Below are positions 1 through 7,464 of a stretch of DNA of 8,578 bases, in pieces. Within the stretch, counting starts at the first letter, position 1; each line of letters opens with the position of its first letter. The stretch is from contig JAUWMJ010000102.1 in NCBI GenBank assembly GCA_030613225.1, positions 1-8,578 on the forward strand, in the 5' to 3' direction. The stretch comes from Desulfobacterales bacterium. GTDB taxonomy: Bacteria > Desulfobacterota > Desulfobacteria > Desulfobacterales > JAUWMJ01. The translations under genes and the position numbers were made by a program. The notes under the pieces are model-generated. The model had not been told where the DNA came from. It made no database searches and saw only the letters and a list, made by a program, of their open reading frames with translations.

Positions 1-2
1 AA

Positions 3-161
3 AAAATCATTGGCATCAAAAAAAATTATGCGTTTATTGTAGGGTATGCCATTAAATGGCTTAGATGGCAGGTTGATGAGGGTCTGCGACTGCCTCCGGG
101 CAAGTCACCAATAGGAGATCTGCTAGTGTCTGAACCACAGATCCACTTAGCTGCCAATTAA
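3..161 (+). CDS. 3' end of an unidentified protein gene (partial)
   Basis: The third frame is open from the left edge to a TAA at 159-161 and gives 52 residues; the start lies outside the window. The tail holds a hydrophobic/aromatic stretch (YAFIVGYAIKWLRW), a basic-proline segment (LRLPPGKSP) and a polar end, which reads like real protein rather than random translation. A well-placed Shine-Dalgarno and the next small gene follow within 30 bases, as in an operon. I do not recognise the family. The call rests on codon content and context only. Confidence 0.5.
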   Translation, partial: KIIGIKKNYAFIVGYAIKWLRWQVDEGLRLPPGKSPIGDLLVSEPQIHLAAN

Positions 162-191
162 CAATAAACCGAAGTAAGGAGAATAAATATA

Positions 192-386
192 ATGCCATTG
201 GAAAAGGAAATTCAACGATTAGAAAAAGAAATTAGTTTAATACCAGTCAATGAACTTTACAGTCAGGAATATACCAGATTAACGGATGAATTAGAAGCTA
301 TAGACCCCTATAATGATTTATTTCATTTAGGCTGTCCTGGTTGGCCTAATTGTGAAGATATCGGATGTAGGGATCATCTATTATAA
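192..386 (+). CDS. Small acidic protein with a Cys-rich C-terminus, unknown function
   Basis: A 64-residue protein with an AAGGAG Shine-Dalgarno at 176-181, ten bases before the ATG. Residues 1-35 are charged and heptad-like (EKEIQRLEKEISL), suggesting a helix or short coiled coil. The C-terminus carries three cysteines in GCPGWPNCEDIGC, followed by a histidine, a possible small metal-binding knuckle (inference). Its TAA stop overlaps the Shine-Dalgarno of the next gene, so the two are probably translationally coupled. I do not recognise a family. The good ribosome site and the non-random composition support a real gene. Confidence 0.6.
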   Translation: MPLEKEIQRLEKEISLIPVNELYSQEYTRLTDELEAIDPYNDLFHLGCPGWPNCEDIGCRDHLL

Positions 387-403
387 GGAGGCAAATAAAA
401 ATC

Positions 404-568
404 ATGGGAAGAGGGTCGGAACTATACTGGTTTTTAAATGAGAAAAAGATACCAACAGAAAAACAGATACAGCATTATTACACACACCTTTCAATCACGC
501 CAGAAATAAAGAAGGTTCGGCGGGAACACTTAAAGTTAATTAAAGCGGAAAAAATAAAAAATAATTAA
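404..568 (+). CDS. Small basic protein, unknown function
   Basis: A 54-residue protein beginning MGRGSELYWFLNEKKIP and ending in a lysine-rich tail (HLKLIKAEKIKNN). The Shine-Dalgarno AAGGAGG at 385-391 overlaps the stop codon of the upstream small gene and sits 12 bases before the ATG, a layout typical of coupled translation. The protein is predicted to be mostly helical and basic. There is no recognisable domain. The strong ribosome site is the main evidence. Confidence 0.55.
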   Translation: MGRGSELYWFLNEKKIPTEKQIQHYYTHLSITPEIKKVRREHLKLIKAEKIKNN

Positions 569-670
569 AACCATTATTATCTTTGGTATATTTTGAACCA
601 TAAAAAAACATATAAATTCTACTGAAAACGTAAAACAGCGATAAACATACAATTAACACAAAATCAGCAA

Positions 671-699
671 AACTATATAGAAAGCTTACAGGAAGAGAC
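671..699 (+). repeat. Degenerate direct repeat, copy 1
   Basis: The 11-base core CAGGAAGAGAC (689-699) is repeated exactly at 765-775, 76 bases downstream. The bases before the core are also partly similar (TATATAG versus TACATAG). Each copy encodes a similar peptide, YI-x3-QEET-(R/K), in its own frame, suggesting an old tandem duplication of a coding segment. Confidence 0.45.
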
Positions 700-746
700 C
701 AGAAAGTACCAAGGAACTAATAAAGAAAATTAATATTATTTTTACA

Positions 747-775
747 GCATACATAGGAGTCAATCAGGAAGAGAC
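747..775 (+). repeat. Degenerate direct repeat, copy 2
   Basis: Second copy of the CAGGAAGAGAC core (765-775), with similar flanking bases to the left. See the copy at 671-699. Confidence 0.45.
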
Positions 776-907
776 TAAAATATCAGAACCTAATATTACT
801 GAAGATATTATAGATAATCGTAAACAGTGTAAAAATTCATTATTAACGTAAATTGTAGAGCAGGATTGATGCCTCACGGTAACATAAAAATATAAAGGGG
901 GGAAATT

Positions 908-1150
908 ATGAAAGACATTATTTTAGGAGTTGCAGGCAGCACCAAGAGTGCAATTAATAAGGTATCCCGGTCTATCCGGCAGAGTTCACCAGATCATGAA
1001 CTCGTTACATCTTTATCAAAGTTGGTGGACAGTTTCAGCAAATTGATTTCTGTTACCAGAGAACAGCCGGAAGGTGGAAATTATTACGAACAGATGGAAC
1101 GGGAAGTACAAGAAGAAAACAAAAACCATAAAACTAAAATTAAGGAATAG
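908..1150 (+). CDS. 80-residue protein of unknown function
   Basis: Starts at an ATG behind a purine-rich ribosome site (AAGGGGGGAAATT). Residues 30-55 form a hydrophobic-periodic helix (LVTSLSKLVDSFSKLI) and the tail is highly charged (QMEREVQEENKNHKTKIKE). The layout, a short Leu/Ser helix followed by an acidic tail, resembles small accessory proteins of phages and conjugative elements, but I cannot assign a family. Its TAG stop overlaps the AGGTGAT ribosome site of the next gene, so it forms an operon with 1160-1549 and 1542-2306. Confidence 0.65.
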   Translation: MKDIILGVAGSTKSAINKVSRSIRQSSPDHELVTSLSKLVDSFSKLISVTREQPEGGNYYEQMEREVQEENKNHKTKIKE

Positions 1151-1159
1151 GTGATTATT

Positions 1160-1549
1160 ATGACAAAAAATTATACCAGAGAAGAAATTAAGGAAATGCT
1201 ATTTGTTCGGGAAACCGTCAGACAGCTTTACAACGAAATTAAAGATGTTCCCACGATTGCAAAATTGGCAACAGAAATATTTTCAGCCAGGGAGGAAGGC
1301 GCTTACATTTCGGAAGAGAACGTTCGTAAGCAAATTGCTGCTATCGAAAGAGATTCATTGTTGGTGGAAAAGGAAACCGATGTACTTGTCGATTCGATGC
1401 TTAAAAGCATTGGTCAGAATTTAGAGGAAAATGAAGAAAAAGCAGAGGAAAAGAAAAAAGGTCTTTTCGATAAAAACAGCCCGGAAAATCATTTACGTTT
1501 TTGTGAGGTTTTGGTCGATAAAGAAGCGGAGGGGGTGCAGCATGGATAA
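1160..1549 (+). CDS. 129-residue charged helical protein, unknown function
   Basis: I start at the ATG at 1160 (MTKNYTREEIKEML), because AGGTGAT at 1149-1155, a close match to the 16S 3' end, lies five bases upstream; an in-frame GTG at 1151 overlaps that site and is less likely. The protein is mostly helical, with a Glu/Lys-rich segment around residues 92-105 (ENEEKAEEKKKG). The last eight bases overlap the start of the coiled-coil gene (ATGGATAA), and GGAGGGGG at 1529-1536 inside this gene serves that start. The family is not recognised. Confidence 0.65.
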   Translation: MTKNYTREEIKEMLFVRETVRQLYNEIKDVPTIAKLATEIFSAREEGAYISEENVRKQIAAIERDSLLVEKETDVLVDSMLKSIGQNLEENEEKAEEKKKGLFDKNSPENHLRFCEVLVDKEAEGVQHG

Positions 1550-2306
1550 CAGAGAACAGGCAAAAGAACTTACCAATAAGCTTACTCAGATTCAACTTGA
1601 GATTGATGACAAGAATCAGAAAATTACAGTTCTAAGGCAAGAGAACTCAAAATTGATTGAGCAGAATTTACACAAGGAAAGAAAACCTCCCAGCCTACGT
1701 TTGGGACGTGAAAAGATTTTTGAGTTGAATAATGAGATTGAAGAAATGGAGCTTACCCGGATATCATTACAGGAACGTCTTGAGTCTGCTAATTCTGCTA
1801 TTCGGAAAGAACAGCTAAAAGGTAAAATATCCCAGTTTCAGGAATCTTCAAAAGACCAATTGGCACTTGTCGAAAATGTTAGAAGGAACGTCAAAGCCTT
1901 AGAAATCTCTATTTCTGCATTGGAAAAGAGTTCAGGCAAAAGACATGCGATTTATGCCTTGTTGAACTTATGCTGGGATTATCCTGATACCAAAAAAGAG
2001 ATAAACTTGGATAATGTTCTTTCCGACTGGGCACCTGATAAGGTTGTTATAGATGTTGGTTTTGATGATCTTATGAAACGGTTAGACCGCTTGCGAGTTG
2101 ATACCACAAACTTTTGGAATCAGCTTGCAGCACTCAGGGAAAATAAACGATCTTACCATAAAGTTGAGCCAGTGAGAAAAGATAATCCGCCTCTAGCATC
2201 AGACAGCTTTGTCAGGATACAGCAGGCAGGAAAAGAAGCTGAAAAAGTAAGACAGCAACCAGCGAGACGTTATATTAATCATAATGTGGTTGCCCATGTT
2301 GGATGA
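1542..2306 (+). CDS. 254-residue coiled-coil protein, unknown function
   Basis: The start is the ATG at 1542, seven bases or so after GGAGGGGG; an upstream in-frame ATG at 1431 would read through the preceding gene in another frame and gives a poly-basic leader, so it is rejected. Residues 5-45 and 55-130 have long heptad-like runs of Leu/Ile with Glu/Lys, predicting two coiled coils with a PPSLRLG break near 49-55. Residues 135-200 look globular (AIYALLNLCWDYPD, DVGFDDLMKRLDRL), and the C-terminus is basic and disordered. There is no signal peptide or membrane segment. It may be a structural or scaffolding protein of the element. The hairpin region begins only four bases after its TGA. Confidence 0.7.
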   Translation: MDNREQAKELTNKLTQIQLEIDDKNQKITVLRQENSKLIEQNLHKERKPPSLRLGREKIFELNNEIEEMELTRISLQERLESANSAIRKEQLKGKISQFQESSKDQLALVENVRRNVKALEISISALEKSSGKRHAIYALLNLCWDYPDTKKEINLDNVLSDWAPDKVVIDVGFDDLMKRLDRLRVDTTNFWNQLAALRENKRSYHKVEPVRKDNPPLASDSFVRIQQAGKEAEKVRQQPARRYINHNVVAHVG

Positions 2307-2407
2307 TCTGCCAGACTTTTCACCTGGCTTTTCATAAGGGAGCTTTTCACTTCCTGGGCTTTAGCCTAAATCATTTAAATCCAGAGGTGGTACTTTTCAC
2401 CTCGCCC

Positions 2408-2440
2408 GTGCAAGGCAGGACTTTTCACCCTGCCTTGCAC
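2408..2440. repeat. Perfect 12-bp hairpin with an ACTTTTCAC loop
   Basis: GTGCAAGGCAGG at 2408-2419 pairs perfectly with CCTGCCTTGCAC at 2429-2440, leaving the 9-base loop ACTTTTCAC. This is the clearest member of the array. A U-run is missing after the stem, so it is not an ordinary terminator. Confidence 0.8.
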
Positions 2441-2494
2441 ACCTGCACTTGTGAGCCCTTTTCTCCTTTGGGGAAATCCTGCAAGCGCAAAAAA

Positions 2495-2527
2495 GGGACA
2501 GGCTTTTTTCTAAGTTTATCCTGTCCC
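2495..2527 (-). terminator. 8-bp hairpin, possible minus-strand terminator
   Basis: GGGACAGG at 2495-2502 pairs with CCTGTCCC at 2520-2527 across a 17-base loop. Six A residues precede it (2489-2494), so on the minus strand the stem is followed by six T's, the form of an intrinsic terminator. No minus-strand gene lies directly upstream, so it would stop only antisense or read-through transcription. Confidence 0.4.
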
Positions 2528-2534
2528 AAATTAT

Positions 2535-2568
2535 GTGATATCCGGGTTCAATCCTTCCCGGATATCAC
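2535..2568 (+). terminator. Perfect 12-bp hairpin, terminator-like
   Basis: GTGATATCCGGG at 2535-2546 pairs perfectly with CCCGGATATCAC at 2557-2568 around a 10-base loop. AACTTTTTAC follows, so it could end plus-strand transcription from the 908-2306 operon, although it lies about 230 bases past the last stop codon and is part of the motif array. Confidence 0.45.
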
Positions 2569-2597
2569 AACTTTTTACTTTTCATCCTCTATGCATA

Positions 2598-2625
2598 GAT
2601 GGGATGTTTTTAGTAACATCCCATC
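2598..2625. repeat. Perfect 11-bp hairpin with a flanking ACTTTTCAG
   Basis: GATGGGATGTT at 2598-2608 pairs with AACATCCCATC at 2615-2625 around the loop TTTAGT. The array motif follows directly (2626-2634). A separate 10-base palindrome, CTATGCATAG (2589-2598), abuts it on the left. Confidence 0.65.
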
Positions 2626-2640
2626 ACTTTTCAGCGCAAA

Positions 2641-2916
2641 TAACACTTGGCACTCATTCAGTCCATATCAGCATATACAATGAAACAAGAACCCTCAACC
2701 ACGCCCTTCTGGCTGTGTCTGGTGTGTCCTGATAGACTCGTTTGATATGCATTATTCACGTTTCAGATCCCGAACAGCTTTTTTGACGTTATCCCATTAT
2801 CTATTGTCAAAGTATATTAACTTTAACAGTAAAGTTAATAATCATCAAATTACATGAATGCCTTACAGTGGCGCTTCTTGGCAAGGATTTTAAGCATTTT
2901 GCTTTGAAAATAGCTC
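2641..2916. other. Intergenic stretch before the tyrosine recombinase
   Basis: No gene is supported. The stretch holds a strong AT-rich inverted repeat (2815-2840) and otherwise no repeat or RNA signature that I can identify. Short open frames that cross it overlap the hairpin array and look like accidents. Confidence 0.4.
2815..2840. promoter_or_regulatory. 10-bp inverted repeat upstream of the integrase promoter
   Basis: TATTAACTTT at 2815-2824 is the exact reverse complement of AAAGTTAATA at 2831-2840, with the spacer AACAGT. It lies about 75 bases upstream of the recombinase -35 box. Without a T-run it resembles a protein-binding site more than a terminator. It shares the GTTAA/TTAAC words with the dyad on the promoter itself. 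Confidence 0.45.
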
Positions 2917-2945
2917 TTGACAGAGATTAAGTTAAGTTATATATT
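2917..2945 (+). promoter_or_regulatory. Sigma-70 type promoter of the tyrosine recombinase
   Basis: TTGACA at 2917-2922 and TATATT at 2940-2945 are separated by 17 bases. The predicted start of transcription, near 2952, gives a short leader with AAAGGAG at 2971-2977. Confidence 0.7.
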
Positions 2946-2966
2946 TGATTAAAACTTAACATTAAT
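2926..2966. promoter_or_regulatory. Dyad over the -10 box, probable operator
   Basis: GTTAAGTT at 2931-2938 is the exact reverse complement of AACTTAAC at 2953-2960, and the symmetry extends outward (ATTAA before, ATTAAT after) with one extra base. The arms flank the -10 element at 2940-2945, the usual place for a repressor site. The binding protein is unknown; the recombinase itself or an element regulator are candidates. Confidence 0.5.
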
Positions 2967-2983
2967 CAAGAAAGGAGACAATC

Positions 2984-3589
2984 ATGGAAAAACAAGAAAA
3001 TTACAATCATCCAGAAAAAGGAAAATCAATCAAAGTTCAACCAATTACAAAGTTAAAGGACATTAAGACAATCAAAGAACTATTATTAAAAAGCAATCCC
3101 CGGAACTATGCACTTTTTACAGTGGGAATAAATACGAATTTACGTGCAAGCGATTTATTAAATCTTAAAGTCGAACAAGTCCGGGGACTGAAAGCAAAGG
3201 AAAGCTTTGAGATTACAGAGCAGAAAACTAAAAAACCCAGAAGGCTTACTCTGAATAAAAGCTGCATTGATTCAATACGTGATCTGCTTGCTTCAAAGGA
3301 AAACTTCAAAGATTCTGATTATCTTTTTCAAAATACAAGAACAGGGAATAAGCTAACAGTCCCTTACTTTAGTGGTCTTGTGAAATTATGGTGTAAGAAA
3401 ATAAATCTTAAAGGCAATTATGCTTCTCATACTTTACGTAAGACCTGGGGTTATCATCAAAGAAAGACTTTCAAGATAAGCATTCCTGTTCTCATGGAAT
3501 GTTTTAATCATTCTACCCAAAGACAAACGTTTGATTATCTGTGCATTCAACCGGAAGAGATAGAGAACGTCTATTTGAATGAACTGTAA
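2984..3589 (+). CDS. Short tyrosine recombinase (phage-type integrase family)
   Basis: A 201-residue protein with the catalytic set of tyrosine recombinases: Arg54 in NLRASDLLNLK, Lys in the beta-hairpin region (QKTKKPR, 80-86), His149 and Arg152 in SHTLRKTWGYH, His176 in FNHSTQRQTF, and nucleophile Tyr185 in FDYL. The family cuts and rejoins DNA through a 3'-phosphotyrosine and mobilises phages and islands. Only about 25 residues precede the catalytic domain, so the usual N-terminal core-binding (SAM-like) domain is missing; the frame starts cleanly behind AAAGGAG, so this is a naturally short form and not a visible truncation. It is transcribed alone from a strong promoter. It could integrate the element, resolve dimers or invert a local segment; which one cannot be seen. 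Confidence 0.88.
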   Translation: MEKQENYNHPEKGKSIKVQPITKLKDIKTIKELLLKSNPRNYALFTVGINTNLRASDLLNLKVEQVRGLKAKESFEITEQKTKKPRRLTLNKSCIDSIRDLLASKENFKDSDYLFQNTRTGNKLTVPYFSGLVKLWCKKINLKGNYASHTLRKTWGYHQRKTFKISIPVLMECFNHSTQRQTFDYLCIQPEEIENVYLNEL

Positions 3590-3898
3590 AGAAGAGCGCT
3601 GATACATGCTTGCTTGAACACGTATTACAAGAGATCGTGCAACCAGCGAGCACTCACAGAGCTATATTACTGTGAACCATTGTGAAACAAGCGCTACCAC
3701 CCCCTCGATTAATCATAGAGCATAGGACGTGCTGCAATTGGACTGAGTCTGCCCCACAAAATTTTACATGGAATCTGACAGTTTATCTTTTATCGGGCGT
3801 CCTAAAAAAGTGTTGGCTTTATCAGAGGCCGCAGGTTGGACAATTTCTGTTTGTATATGGAGTATATTTGATAGGAATAAAACTTAGCTCGTTTTGAA
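3590..3898. other. Intergenic stretch between convergent genes
   Basis: No strong gene is seen between the tyrosine recombinase and the minus-strand operon. A GTG-started frame (3682-3897) has no ribosome site and an odd composition. A small dyad, TCACAG/CTGTGA (3654-3659 and 3670-3675), lies in the left half. No clear intrinsic terminator is visible for either side. A possible gene remnant occupies 3768-3887. Confidence 0.35.
3768..3887 (+). pseudogene. Possible remnant of an unidentified gene
   Basis: An ATG-to-TAG frame of 39 residues reads like protein in its middle (SFIGRPKKVLALSEAAGW) but has no ribosome site before the ATG. It may be a fragment of a longer gene lost by rearrangement next to the recombinase. 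The function is unrecognised and the call is weak. Confidence 0.2.
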
Positions 3899-4300
3899 TT
3901 ATTTGCGTTTCTTAATTTGTAAAACAATTTCATCTTTAGTGTTTTTGTCATTATTAAATATTATTTCTAATTTATAAGTACCAATCTTGCTGATTTTTAG
4001 TGGAGAATATTTGGCAAGCATAGTAAATTTTTGGATGTTTTTAACTTCTTCAGGGATAGAACCATTTATTGGTTTGCTAAGCGCTTTATCAGAAGAGTCT
4101 TTAAGGTTTATCAAGAAAGAATCGCCACTCTTGATATTTTTATAGAAAATGGCGAAACAGATTTGTGGGAAAACATATGGTGTTCTTGGAATAAAAATAT
4201 CATTTCCATAGGCTCCCATGAAAGATAGTTTGTTTCCAACTTCTTCTCGAATATCGTCACAAATTATTGAAAATATGAGCTTTGGTTTTCTTGGTGCCAT
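3899..4300 (-). CDS. DUF6941-like protein, third gene of the TA operon
   Basis: A 133-residue protein with FSIICDDIREEVGNKLSFMG (residues 10-29) followed by alternating beta-like segments (DIFIPRTPYVFPQICFAIFYK; TYKLEIIFNN). The CDDIR-E-GNKLS-MG-YG pattern resembles the uncharacterised DUF6941 family as I recall it; the assignment is from memory of the motif. No catalytic residues can be named; the fold is probably a beta-sandwich. The ATG is served by AGGAG five bases upstream and lies 37 bases inside the antitoxin gene in a different frame, so the three minus-strand genes are one translationally coupled operon. It might assist or modulate the toxin-antitoxin pair, or be an unrelated cargo gene. 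Confidence 0.65.
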   Translation of the reverse strand: MAPRKPKLIFSIICDDIREEVGNKLSFMGAYGNDIFIPRTPYVFPQICFAIFYKNIKSGDSFLINLKDSSDKALSKPINGSIPEEVKNIQKFTMLAKYSPLKISKIGTYKLEIIFNNDKNTKDEIVLQIKKRK

Positions 4301-4992
4301 TTGTTCTCCTGTGTTTTGAAAGCAAAAACTGAGGTTTCAGCTATGTCTGTTCGGTCATATAAAGTTTCTAAAGAGGGGTCTATGTCTAAGCTATTTGGGT
4401 AAGTCCATAGTGGATTTGCAGTTGCACCGGTGGAGAGAGGCGAAACACTGTAAATCATGGCGGGCTCGACATCTTGAGTAAAAGCAATTTGTTTAAGTGA
4501 AACAACATAGTCGTCACCCATTCTATTTGCAATGATAATATATTCTAATTTAGCCTCTTCGAGCTTTAGATTTGACAAGTAAGATAAATATTTTTTAGAT
4601 TTGCCAGCTGCAACTCCTTTAACAAGCATGTATGTCGTTCTTATTAATCTATCATTTTTTTCACTATGTTTTTGATTATTATTTTCCCATTTTGAGAGGG
4701 TGGTTTTTCCAACACCTAATAAATCAGCAAAAACTTTTGATGCAAGAAATAACCTTTTTCTTAAAAACTTTATTTCTTTGCCAGTAAGCAAAGATGGTTT
4801 TTGTAATAATTGTTCACCAATCAAATCATTTAATCTTGATAATTTAAATATAGATGAGAATGAATTGCCACATGAACAAATATATACAGGAGCATCTTCG
4901 ATATAAACGTTATCAAGGCCTGATTCTTCATAGTGATATGTGCGAATATCCTTTTTATAATTTTTGCCACAATCATGACATTTAATTTTCAT
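4264..4992 (-). CDS. MqsA/YgiT-type zinc-finger HTH antitoxin with long C-terminal extension
   Basis: I prefer the ATG at 4992 (MKIKCHDCG) because GAGG, just after the toxin stop, lies nine bases upstream; an ATG at 5001 adds three residues (MSS) but leaves no gap to that site. Counting from 5001, Cys8, Cys11, Cys42 and Cys44 form the YgiT-type zinc finger, with the YHYEESGLDNVY segment typical of these antitoxins. Residues 72-125 form the Xre-like helix-turn-helix (LLTGKEIKFLRK, FADLLGVGKTTLSKWEN). Such antitoxins neutralise the partner toxin and repress the operon. About 95 residues follow the DNA-binding domain (from KLEYIIIANRMG), more than in the compact members I know, and match nothing I recognise. 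The toxin gene is immediately upstream. Confidence 0.82.
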   Translation of the reverse strand: MKIKCHDCGKNYKKDIRTYHYEESGLDNVYIEDAPVYICSCGNSFSSIFKLSRLNDLIGEQLLQKPSLLTGKEIKFLRKRLFLASKVFADLLGVGKTTLSKWENNNQKHSEKNDRLIRTTYMLVKGVAAGKSKKYLSYLSNLKLEEAKLEYIIIANRMGDDYVVSLKQIAFTQDVEPAMIYSVSPLSTGATANPLWTYPNSLDIDPSLETLYDRTDIAETSVFAFKTQENKWHQENQSSYFQ

Positions 4993-5004
4993 TGAAGACA
5001 TCCT

Positions 5005-5313
5005 CTATTTAGGTTTTATTGTTAAGCAAACTAATTCAGTTTCACTTAAAATTGCTGTAACAACAATTGCGATATCTCCCTCTATTGAAGCACCTTCCAC
5101 ATTGCAAACCCAGTTTTCATATTGTTGATCGAAAACAGGTTGTTCTTTGATTTGCCCTTTTGAAAGAACTAATTCAACATCTAAGATATCATACCCTCTA
5201 AGCTTCATCCTTGATTTGCAATGCAACGATGGGGTCACGTATCCAAATTTAACCGTTCCACGGATTATTTCTTCGGCTTCTTTAATGGTGAGGTTACTAT
5301 TATTATCAAGCAT
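5005..5313 (-). CDS. DUF4258-like toxin of a type II toxin-antitoxin pair
   Basis: A 102-residue protein. His31 with nearby Arg35 and Arg39 (SLHCKSRMKLRGYDILDVELVL) and the beta strands YENWVCNVEG and IAIVVTAI...ETELVCLTI match the DUF4258 layout, a small fold related to RelE/MqsR-like RNA-cleaving toxins. The activity is inferred from the family, and the active site is not proven here. The order toxin then zinc-finger HTH antitoxin is the MqsRA/HigBA arrangement, with only a few bases between the genes. The ATG at 5313 has no visible Shine-Dalgarno, and a promoter-like -35/-10 pair straddles it, so the true start may be downstream or the message may start very close to the ATG. The frame is also open upstream of 5313. 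Confidence 0.68.
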   Translation of the reverse strand: MLDNNSNLTIKEAEEIIRGTVKFGYVTPSLHCKSRMKLRGYDILDVELVLSKGQIKEQPVFDQQYENWVCNVEGASIEGDIAIVVTAILSETELVCLTIKPK

Positions 5314-5665: not shown

Positions 5666-5827
5666 ATGGATACAAAAAGCTATTTATTGAAAGATATTCC
5701 TGAAAGCTTCTGGCGACAGATCAAGTCAACAGCAGCACTTAAAGGCGTATCAATTCAAAAGTTCATAGTCGGTCTTATCGAAAAGGAACTGAAGATTAAA
5801 TCTGTACAAATAAAGAGGGCTAAATAA
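5666..5827 (+). CDS. Small ribbon-helix-helix-like protein upstream of the serine recombinase
   Basis: A 53-residue protein with SYLLKDIPESFWRQIKSTAALKGVSIQKFIVGLIEKELK. A short N-terminal strand followed by IPE-x-FW-x2-IK and GVSIQKFIVGLIEKEL is the pattern of Arc/CopG-type ribbon-helix-helix DNA binders. These act as dimers, usually as repressors or accessory DNA-binding factors. The TAA stop shares one base with the recombinase ATG (TAATG), and the recombinase ribosome site (GAGGG, 5815-5819) lies inside this gene, so the two are translationally coupled. Likely roles are control of the recombinase operon or of recombination direction (inference). Confidence 0.7.
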   Translation: MDTKSYLLKDIPESFWRQIKSTAALKGVSIQKFIVGLIEKELKIKSVQIKRAK

Positions 5828-6801
5828 TGAAACAATTAAGATTTGCTCCTATCGTCCGTGTATCCACTGAAAAGCAGGAAAAGCAAGGTGAATCCTTAGA
5901 GACTCAGAAAAAACAGATTATTAGATATGTCGAACAGCTTGGCGGTGTTATTCCTGATTCTTGTTGGCGTTACAGCGGGCAGGAGCATGCAACAGCACAG
6001 TTTCAGTTTGAACGTGCAAAGCTGGAACTGCTCTTAAACGATGCTTCAAGGGGTTTTTTTGATGCTGTTATCATTTGCAATGCTGATAGATGGAGTCGAG
6101 ACAATCGGAAATCTAAAGAAGGTTTGCAAATTCTCAAGGATAATGGCATCCTGTTCTTTATCGGCTCGACTGAAATCAATTTGTTTGTGCCTGAACAAGC
6201 TTTATTTCTTGGAATGTCTACAGAGATCAACGAATTTTTAGCACAACAGTCAGCATTGAAATCAATTATGAACAAAGTTGAAAAAGCAAAGAAAAACATT
6301 CCTGTTTGTGGGAAATTGCCGTCAGGCAGGACTTATGATAAAAAATCAGGAAAGTGGGGAATTGATCCAGAATTTAAAAAAAAGATTGAGTATGCAGCGA
6401 ATCAGCTAATCAGAGGAAACACGCTGCTTAAAATAAGCCAGACTATAGGCATGAATCGTGCGAATCTACGAAACATCTTATTTGATGGAAGCGGAGATAT
6501 ATGGACACAGCACTTTCGAGCCGATAGGTTTAAAATCAATGAAGCGATTGAAACCAAAGTGCCCCGATTATTGACACAGGATGTTATTGAAAAAGTAAAG
6601 CTGCGAGTTCAAAACAACAGAACGGTTTTTCATAAACAACTAAAGAACAAATACATATTAGGCCGTATGATTATGTGTGGTCATTGTGGCGGTGCACTTG
6701 GAGGCAATACAAGAACTGAACGAAACAATTTGCAATATTACAAACATCTGCCTTATAGGAACTGTAAGCACTTTCTATATGTGCCTGCTAAAATGATTTA
6801 G
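5827..6801 (+). CDS. Large serine recombinase, N-terminal part up to an in-frame TAG
   Basis: 324 residues before the amber codon. The N-terminal resolvase domain has the nucleophile Ser13 in VRVSTEKQEKQGESLETQ and the DRWSRD motif (Arg88, Arg91). A Recombinase domain follows (about 160-260: CGKLPSGRTYDKKSGKWG, TIGMNRANLRNIL), then a zinc ribbon beginning MCGHCGG (Cys284, Cys287) with Cys313 and His315 in RNCKHF. The family joins attP and attB through a 5'-phosphoserine and moves phages and islands. The reading frame continues unbroken after TAG at 6799-6801 into a typical coiled-coil C-terminus, so one nonsense change (for example GAG to TAG) or amber read-through explains the break. Without that part the protein would lack the coiled coil that controls synapsis. 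The start is the ATG overlapping the RHH gene. Confidence 0.85.
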   Translation: MKQLRFAPIVRVSTEKQEKQGESLETQKKQIIRYVEQLGGVIPDSCWRYSGQEHATAQFQFERAKLELLLNDASRGFFDAVIICNADRWSRDNRKSKEGLQILKDNGILFFIGSTEINLFVPEQALFLGMSTEINEFLAQQSALKSIMNKVEKAKKNIPVCGKLPSGRTYDKKSGKWGIDPEFKKKIEYAANQLIRGNTLLKISQTIGMNRANLRNILFDGSGDIWTQHFRADRFKINEAIETKVPRLLTQDVIEKVKLRVQNNRTVFHKQLKNKYILGRMIMCGHCGGALGGNTRTERNNLQYYKHLPYRNCKHFLYVPAKMI

Positions 6802-7464
6802 GATGCTGTTCTGGTTCATCTGTTTGGAATGTTCGGCAATCAATCGGAAATGGTAAAAGCTGTAGGCAATGCTATTCCTGATTTTAAACATATCGAATCA
6901 CTTGAATCACAAATTAAGAATCATGAAAAAGAATTAAAGAAAATTGAAAGAGGAAAAGACAGAATAATTGATATGATTCAAGACGGAAATATCAGCCGTG
7001 AGGATGTCAAAAAAAGAATGTCTGCATTAAAAGAAAGGGAATCCCTCTTAAACAAGGAAGTTGAAACTATCAGAGATAAGATAAAAGCAGTTCCAAAGAA
7101 AAAGGAAATAAAAGCAAGAGCAGATTTACTGAAAGCACATATTCAAAGCATTTATACCAACTCTACTGAATTCAAGAATATGGGCTTTGAAGAGAAGAGG
7201 AAATTATGTCAATTTGCTTTTAATGGAAAAGATTTTGAGGGCAATCGTTCAGGTGTCTATGTAAAAAAAGAAAATGATGGCTCATGGTCTTTTGAAATTA
7301 AAGGAATCTTGAACGATTCAGACATCAAAGATTACTTGCCTATGGATAAAGAAAAAGCTAACAGCATACTTGGTATAGAAGATGATAAATACAATCCTTT
7401 TGAAGTTAATACAGATGGTTATGAAAGTACAGAATTGTCATTATCTCGTGGCGATCAACCATGA
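6802..7464 (+). pseudogene. C-terminal coiled-coil part of the same serine recombinase
   Basis: Same frame as the upstream part, starting straight after the TAG. DAVLVHLFGMFG completes the helix that normally follows the zinc ribbon, then a long coiled coil rich in Glu/Lys (LESQIKNHEKELKKIERG ... MSALKERESLLNKEVETI) and a C-terminal globular segment (FEEKRKLCQFAFNGKDF, WSFEIKGIL). The ATG at 6829 has no convincing ribosome site, so independent expression is doubtful. There are no other frameshifts or stops over the whole region 5827-7464, so the inactivation, if real, is recent. Confidence 0.75.

Follow-up and report, generated by a model that had tools for sequence, protein, structure and literature searches.

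CsrB contains copies of GGA in loops and in single-stranded regions, and a single RNA thus provides many sites (excerpts of PMC8383071). ANTAR targets are short-stemmed hairpins next to each other, with conserved loop residues, and the coiled-coil part of the reader protein improves binding; the motif consists of two hairpins with hexanucleotide loops that have A at position 1 and G at position 4, and the examples are found in leaders before genes (excerpts of PMC3369931). In antisense RNAs with C-rich loops, e.g. RNAIII, several loops contain a word that can pair with ribosome-binding sites (the pertinent part of PMC8383071). REP and REPIN elements are intergenic hairpins that are clustered in some genomes, and subsets of REP differ in stem, loop or tail (the pertinent part of PMC3733652).

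Here we analyse an array of hairpins at positions 2310-2634 of a stretch of DNA of 8,578 bases (“the window”). A short word is kept in the array, while the stems are free, and no description of such a layout was found in the literature searched. The run of hairpins and its recurring loop and spacer word had been pointed out in an earlier note, and both were confirmed in place, with small corrections.

Anatomy of the array and excess over chance

The array is bipartite (Table 1). The part at 2310-2440 is composed of four hairpins with the motif CTTTTCA in their loops and with the stems GCCAG, AGGGAG, GAGGTG, and GTGCAAGGCAGG. The part at 2490-2634 is composed of three longer hairpins (8, 13, and 11 bp) with other loops, and CTTTTCA is located 3′ of the second and the third of them. 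Most stems of the array are perfectly Watson-Crick paired. The first hairpin starts 3 bases past the stop codon of a coiled-coil gene, and the array ends about 350 bases upstream of a tyrosine recombinase gene.

CTTTTCA, which the earlier note had counted at least six times in loops or beside stems, is present in seven copies, all on the plus strand, starting at 2316, 2328, 2343, 2393, 2421, 2578, and 2627. The start-to-start spacing is irregular (12, 15, 50, 28, 157, and 49 bases), and Tandem Repeats Finder reported no repeat in 2200-2720. Only four of the seven copies are in hairpin loops, on differing stems, and three lie between or beside hairpins. In the second half, the loops of the three long hairpins (2495-2625) lack the motif. 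The hairpins for which stem lengths had been given were all recovered, with a stem of 13 bp instead of 12 bp at 2534-2569. The stems had been called unrelated, and those of the motif hairpins do differ; the layout with free stems and a kept short word is real and rare.

Table 1. Coordinates of the array, its hairpins, and the neighbouring features in the window
Feature	Position	Strand	Remark
Hairpin run, whole	2310..2634	+	Probably non-coding, probable structured RNA
Hairpin GCCAG(ACTTTTCAC)CTGGC	2310-2328	+	Motif in loop
Hairpin AGGGAG(CTTTTCA)CTTCCT	2337-2355	+	6 bp, one G-T pair, motif is the loop
Hairpin GAGGTG(GTACTTTT)CACCTC	2384-2403	+	Motif overlaps 3′ arm, its CAC inside the stem
Hairpin GTGCAAGGCAGG(ACTTTTCAC)CCTGCCTTGCAC	2408-2440	+	12 bp, motif in loop
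Hairpin, 8 bp, loop CTTTTTTCTAAGTTTAT	2495-2527	+	Loop without motif
Hairpin, 13 bp, 10-nt loop TTCAATCCTT, then ACTTTTTACTTTTCA	2534-2569	+	Loop without motif
Hairpin, 11 bp, loop TTTAGT, then ACTTTTCA	2598-2625	+	Loop without motif
80-aa gene	908..1150	+	hhalign probability 82%, E 1e-5, 43 columns
Coiled-coil gene, 254 aa	1542..2306	+	Directly upstream of array
Inverted repeat TATTAACTTTA ACAG TAAAGTTAATA	2815..2840	.	Likely tyrosine recombinase site, outside array
Tyrosine recombinase, 201 aa	2984..3589	+	Neighbour, integrase-family domain

For comparison, 500 dinucleotide shuffles of 2310-2634 were generated (200 for the fold energies). The seven copies of CTTTTCA compare with a mean of 0.18 and a largest value of 2 in the shuffles, and the three copies of ACTTTTCAC with a mean of 0.004 and a maximum of 1. 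Four perfect stems have 8 or more bp (mean 0.07, largest 2) and three have 10 or more bp (mean 0.006, maximum 1), while the number of stems with 6 or more bp, i.e. five (mean 1.07), was equalled by 1 of the 500 shuffles. Folding of both strands, which the earlier note had proposed as a check, yielded an energy of −126 kcal/mol for the coding strand versus −74 ± 5 kcal/mol for shuffled sequences (z −10.5), and a z of −8.0 for the other strand (200 shuffles).

CTTTTCA was picked after the sequence had been read, and therefore a control with any 7-mer is fairer. In 6 of the 500 shuffles, at least one 7-mer was present seven times or more, i.e. the motif excess is weaker when the word is not chosen beforehand. 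In the whole window, both strands together contain nine copies versus 3.8 expected, a number that 5 of 200 shuffles equalled, and only two of these copies are located outside the array. The excess is thus local to the array.

The coiled-coil gene, its 3′ flanks, and a possible structured RNA

For the coiled-coil protein, two long helices (residues 3-41 and 50-131) are predicted with a mean pLDDT of 68.7, and a Foldseek search with the model against viral and PDB libraries gave no match at E ≤ 0.001. The protein collection contained only four relatives (P0121-P0124; 99, 64, 62, and 43% identity). Profile searches revealed remote relatives in 1 of 35 hand-picked genomes and in 4 of 85, 3 of 395, 2 of 389, and 1 of 24 genomes, whereby the sets overlap and several genomes were searched repeatedly; a wider profile was positive in 5 of the 85 genomes, one of them marginal. 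Without the marginal one, the positives amount to six genomes (G003, G059, G098, G099, G629, and G764). No such protein was found in viral contigs and plasmids.

A tRNA gene is present within the stretch in five of the six contexts examined (L221-L226). In L221, Pfam identified genes for Prim-Pol and NlpC/P60, and a further gene reads like an integrase-type gene; in G629 the neighbour of the coiled-coil gene is a head maturation protease gene (PHROG 3244, E 3.8e-20). In mobile elements of other genomes, the coiled-coil gene is preceded by a small gene, to which the 80-aa gene of the window is probably related, as judged by its profile match. From the tRNA-adjacent relatives, the neighbours in L221 and G629, and the probably related small gene, we infer that the first 2.6 kb of the window are part of a phage-satellite-like element.

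Several copies of this element type are found in one genome, G003 (L053/L301, L302, L303, L221, and L222). The NlpC-type gene is preceded there by a tyrosine recombinase in L053 and by what reads as a serine recombinase gene in L221; a long frame in L053 is a product of masked bases. Downstream of the coiled-coil gene of G059 (L214/L226), there are TGAAAAGTGA-type repeats, putative terminal repeats of the IS21 family.

The flanks of the family were folded over the first 85 nt past the stop codon. The mean z was −2.55 (150 shuffles) for 15 flanks, those of the window and of 14 relatives (L212 and L303 being near-repeats of others), compared with −0.24 for the equivalent stretch after 62 other genes of L221-L226 (60 shuffles; Mann-Whitney p 7e-7, with non-independent family members). 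The first 85 nt fold well in 13 of the 14 relatives examined (z −1.7 to −5.2), with loop words that differ from CTTTTCA. Folding is weak for the window (z −0.42) and L227 (z −0.13), both of which have their strongest hairpins further on. Among 13 flanks (L212 and L303 left out), 11 have the slightly more stable fold on the coding strand.

By eye, a short hairpin, a linker with GCTTCAC, GCTTGCC or GCTTTGCC, and a long hairpin were recognized in this order in 8 of the 14 relatives (L211, L212, L053, L215, L217, L219, L302, and L303); the likeness of linker words such as GCTTCAC to CTTTTCA was likewise noticed by eye alone. Arrays of CTTTTCA were not found in the 3′ flanks of the relatives. RNAalifold kept 17 pairs in the flanks of six relatives, 5 of them with two-sided changes, and covariation is not established, because the net covariation term is unfavourable (+1.8). 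The relatives support the view that a hairpin-rich flank after the coiled-coil gene is a general property.

The earlier note had proposed a structured RNA with a repeated recognition element, and this is still the best reading, in view of the excess of hairpins and motif copies and the rare layout. It is quite possible, and our tentative preference, that the array is a structured 3′ RNA that displays one loop word many times. The element that carries the array would be a mobile element of a Desulfobacterota-type bacterium, judging from the relatives of the recombinase, and the array would be the non-coding folded 3′ end of the coiled-coil transcript or a small RNA released from that transcript. 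The loop word ACUUUUCAC would be displayed by four hairpins, each with its own stem, and by three spacers, offering one partner several copies of one binding site. As the partner, an RNA-binding protein comes into question, as does an RNA that would pair with the loops through a ribosome-binding site of the GGUGAAAAGU type. The stems would merely hold the loops open, and therefore would not need a common sequence; as they differ, they would not be read for sequence, and as the loop word is kept, it would be the part that is read. Several copies of one word per transcript point to a many-site partner, as with CsrB. We infer that the array is transcribed, acts at the RNA rather than at the DNA level, and displays many sites.

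The structured RNA is supported by the fold energy (z −10.5), the excess of hairpins and motif copies, the rare layout, the position 3 bases past a stop codon, the hairpin-rich flanks of the relatives, the lack of a homolog for the overlapping open reading frame (see below), and the best promoter-like match of 1-3700 (TTGACA-17-TATATT, 2917-2945, 11/12), which is located downstream of the array and gives the tyrosine recombinase gene a promoter-like site of its own. Other observations argue against it. Promoter-like matches across 1-3700 are at chance level (12 versus 10.8), and a 9/12 match at 2249-2276 just upstream precedes the array. The first 85 nt of the window and L227 are unremarkable, and the flanks of the relatives lack CTTTTCA arrays. 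Both strands fold well, 6 of 500 shuffles reached the copy number with any 7-mer, and the covariation term of the flanks is +1.8.

Rather doubtful, and less probable than the structured RNA as such, is a new class of mobile-element RNA, in which the coiled-coil gene is regularly trailed by its own free-stem hairpin module with a lineage-specific kept loop word, amplified here into a multi-site array. If this were true, specificity between element, helper, and rivals would lie in the loop word. A multi-site RNA would represent a kind of sponge or scaffold RNA on a small mobile element that we did not find described in the literature searched, and the coiled-coil protein made just upstream would be the obvious candidate partner.

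A role of the DNA itself and a terminator cluster are serious rivals to the structured RNA, though each of them is unlikely. As DNA, the hairpins might form in the single-stranded or supercoiled state and serve replication, packaging or transfer, with a protein reading the ACTTTTCAC loops. The strong folding of both strands (z −10.5 and −8.0) and the perfect pairing of most stems are compatible with this, as is the presence of relatives of the upstream gene in tRNA-near elements, including L221 with its Prim-Pol replication gene. However, the slightly higher stability of the coding strand in 11 of 13 flanks speaks against it, the location past a stop codon suits a transcript, and a scan of ten window ORFs gave no Rep, relaxase or primase family.

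Alternatively, and with about the same low probability, the hairpins would terminate transcription or protect the mRNA at the end of an operon, CTTTTCA would be a weak U-tract, and the repetition of the loop would be a local copying accident. A scan for terminators found none in the array, although its loops were limited to 3-8 nt, which excludes the hairpin with the 10-nt loop at 2534-2569. Four motif copies are in loops and not 3′ of stems, and seven exact copies exceed the shuffles. A terminator cluster alone would leave the repeated loop word unexplained. In favour of terminators, an operon end precedes the array and the best promoter-like site of 1-3700 comes after it, the hairpins 2534-2569 and 2598-2625 are 5′ of ACTTTTTACTTTT and ACTTTTCA, respectively, and hairpin-rich flanks are usual after the coiled-coil family (13 of 14 relatives).

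Similar arrays elsewhere and less probable origins

The window and L001-L304, 5.32 million bases on both strands, were scanned for at least three non-overlapping hairpins within 300 nt that have a common loop 6-mer and different stems. Apart from the window, only two weak places were found (L004 and L177). Among 389 genomes of one class, which was selected as a class in which recombinase relatives occur, 84 have three CTTTTCA with gaps of 14-44, and 36 have two RCTTTTCAC with gaps of 6-36. A control with the backward pattern yielded fewer matches than the three-CTTTTCA scan, whose count is inflated by coding repeats. The DNA was examined for 38 of the 84 genomes (30 loci, and 16 stretches adding 8 genomes) and match strings for others; for the RCTTTTCAC pattern, the DNA was examined for 30 of the 36 genomes and three more. 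Viral contigs were scanned with gaps of 8-38, which would miss the window itself, and then of 14-44; 14 of 50 viral loci were read by eye, and 9 loci from the 14-44 scan and at least 109 further new loci were judged by script.

Among the examined matches from the 389 genomes of one class and the viral contigs, no other CTTTTCA array had at least three different stems. The examined matches were coding repeats, heptamer runs, chance pairs, and repeats of a single palindrome, and plasmid and phage DNA gave matches at chance level alone (E 0.4 and above). As far as examined, the array is rare and private to the element, perhaps including its close kin. The earlier note had regarded the absence of the clustered motif from other genomes as counter-evidence to its proposal. 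At the depth examined, arrays with different stems were indeed not found again, whereas arrays of a single motif-loop palindrome do exist in other genomes.

Examples of such single-unit repeats are GGGGTGCT(CTTTTC)AGTACCCC and GGGACGTCCC(CAACTTTTCA)GGGACGTCCC. Tandem repeats of palindromes that have CTTTTCA in their loops are present in L275 (G490, 3343-3456) and in L271-L273 (G657 and G623). The GGGACGTCCC repeats of L275 adjoin an ORF whose tail presumably resembles a REP-associated transposase; a Pfam search with this ORF gave no match to that family. The recurrence of CTTTTCA loops across genomes (L271-L273, L275, and L277) is no evidence, because these loci were selected by a CTTTTCA search. 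A match in G777, in which two copies flank a small palindrome, reads like reverse-strand 23S rRNA, and the other matches in the last three RCTTTTCAC genomes examined are chance pairs. In L423 (G557), a two-copy case, two GCTTTTCACC copies adjoin overlapping GGCTCC-type palindromes.

The array could be a remnant of repeated mobile DNA, i.e. of REP/REPIN-type palindromes, IS ends, or a decayed CTTTTCA heptamer repeat, which we consider improbable. The tandem palindromic arrays in L271-L273, L275, L277, and L278 would fit, as would the ACTTTTCAC heptamer runs, which are frequent among the RCTTTTCAC matches. However, those arrays repeat one unit with one stem, whereas the stems of the window differ, the spacing is irregular, and Tandem Repeats Finder reported no repeat. 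In addition, no GTAG or CGTC tag is present in 2310-2634, and the ten window ORFs scanned contain no transposase family, only one integrase-type and one resolvase-type recombinase.

The family of the neighbouring tyrosine recombinase comprises 2,536 proteins, for which 80 genome loci and 80 viral loci were kept; it is also present on small circular plasmids, e.g. the 9.6-kb pDCAR5 of Solidesulfovibrio carbinolicus. The earlier note had named the recombinase as a possible partner of the array, which it probably is not. The 44 relatives that are best by identity, some of them near-repeats, were inspected. In 12 of these (L051, L053, L055, L056, L058, L060, L066, L068, L069, L072, L112, and L153), the inverted repeat that ranks best in the upstream 300 bp belongs to the GTTAACT-spacer-AGTTAAC type, and such repeats (GTTAACTTT-spacer-AAAGTTAAC type) start 153-221 bp before the recombinase start codon; in the other 32, no repeat of this type ranked best. 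The inverted repeat at 2815-2840 is thus likely to be the recombination site of the tyrosine recombinase, more so than the array, as judged from the sequence comparison. That the array itself comprises these recombination sites is very improbable, although the gene with its integrase-family domain starts only 350 bp downstream: the enzyme has its own upstream repeat type, and CTTTTCA is scarce near the relatives. In the 800 bp upstream, 41 of the 44 have no copy and three have one, compared with seven for the window, and the densest 400 bases of 103 recombinase loci (L051-L153) contain at most three.

Further downstream, a serine recombinase frame (5827-7464) is split by an in-frame TAG at 6799-6801. 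Its relative in L067 was matched in two stretches of one frame and is located just downstream of a tyrosine recombinase relative. On the minus strand at 3899-5313, genes for a DUF6941 protein, a protein that weakly matches MqsA-antitoxin and helix-turn-helix (below curated cut-offs), and a DUF4258 protein form a row that looks like a toxin-antitoxin module.

The array is probably non-coding. An open reading frame of 126 aa (2303-2683) traverses it, starts within an ATGA overlap with the stop codon of the coiled-coil gene, and reads ACTTTTCAC as T-F-H. A search among 5.8 billion proteins, which needs shared 5-residue words and in which three candidates were scored, found no homolog except the frame itself at E up to 10. 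A small coupled gene can be virtually dismissed, since the start-stop overlap of the coupled type and the frame open across 126 codons are outweighed by the homolog search that found this frame alone (E up to 10), by the motif copy at 2392 that falls in another frame, and by long perfect inverted repeats, which are unexpected in a coding stretch.

Comparison with known systems

The units of a REP family have a common stem. The array is an intergenic hairpin cluster like the REP/REPIN elements, as far as the excerpts portray them, but it keeps the loop and varies the stems, with no same-stem repetition, and GTAG and CGTC are absent from both of its strands. As for the C-rich loops of the RNAIII type in the source excerpt, complementarity exists between ACUUUUCACCU of the array and AGGUGAAAAGU. 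In contrast to that type, the only GTGAAAAG on the plus strand of the window lies inside the coiled-coil gene (1708-1716), and no target ribosome-binding site of the form AGGUGAAAAGU was found within the window.

Neighbouring hairpins with a kept loop word are a feature that the array has in common with the ANTAR targets of the excerpted account. It differs from them in having four motif loops of 7-9 nt without G at position 4, and in its location after a gene, whereas the excerpted ANTAR examples are located before genes.

CsrB-type genes are usually free-standing, whereas the array sits after a mobile-element gene. With CsrB/RsmZ, as excerpted, the array shares the many hairpins and the one short word in loops or single-stranded regions. 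The word, however, is ACUUUUCAC (GUGAAAAGU on the other strand). GGA is absent from the four motif loops on either strand, and among the other three loops it occurs only in that of 2534-2569, on the minus strand; elsewhere in the stretch there are six copies on the plus and 11 on the minus strand. The array also has no Rfam match at gathering scores; at E ≤ 10, seven weak matches were obtained in 2200-3000 (miRNA, snoRNA, and Mu-gpT-DE families), all below these scores.

The array thus fails the defining loop features of both CsrB and ANTAR. By analogy, it is CsrB-like in its layout, and not a member of CsrB. Hairpin arrays that keep a loop word on free stems are known from CsrB, and would have arisen again with another word if the present array is a multi-site RNA.
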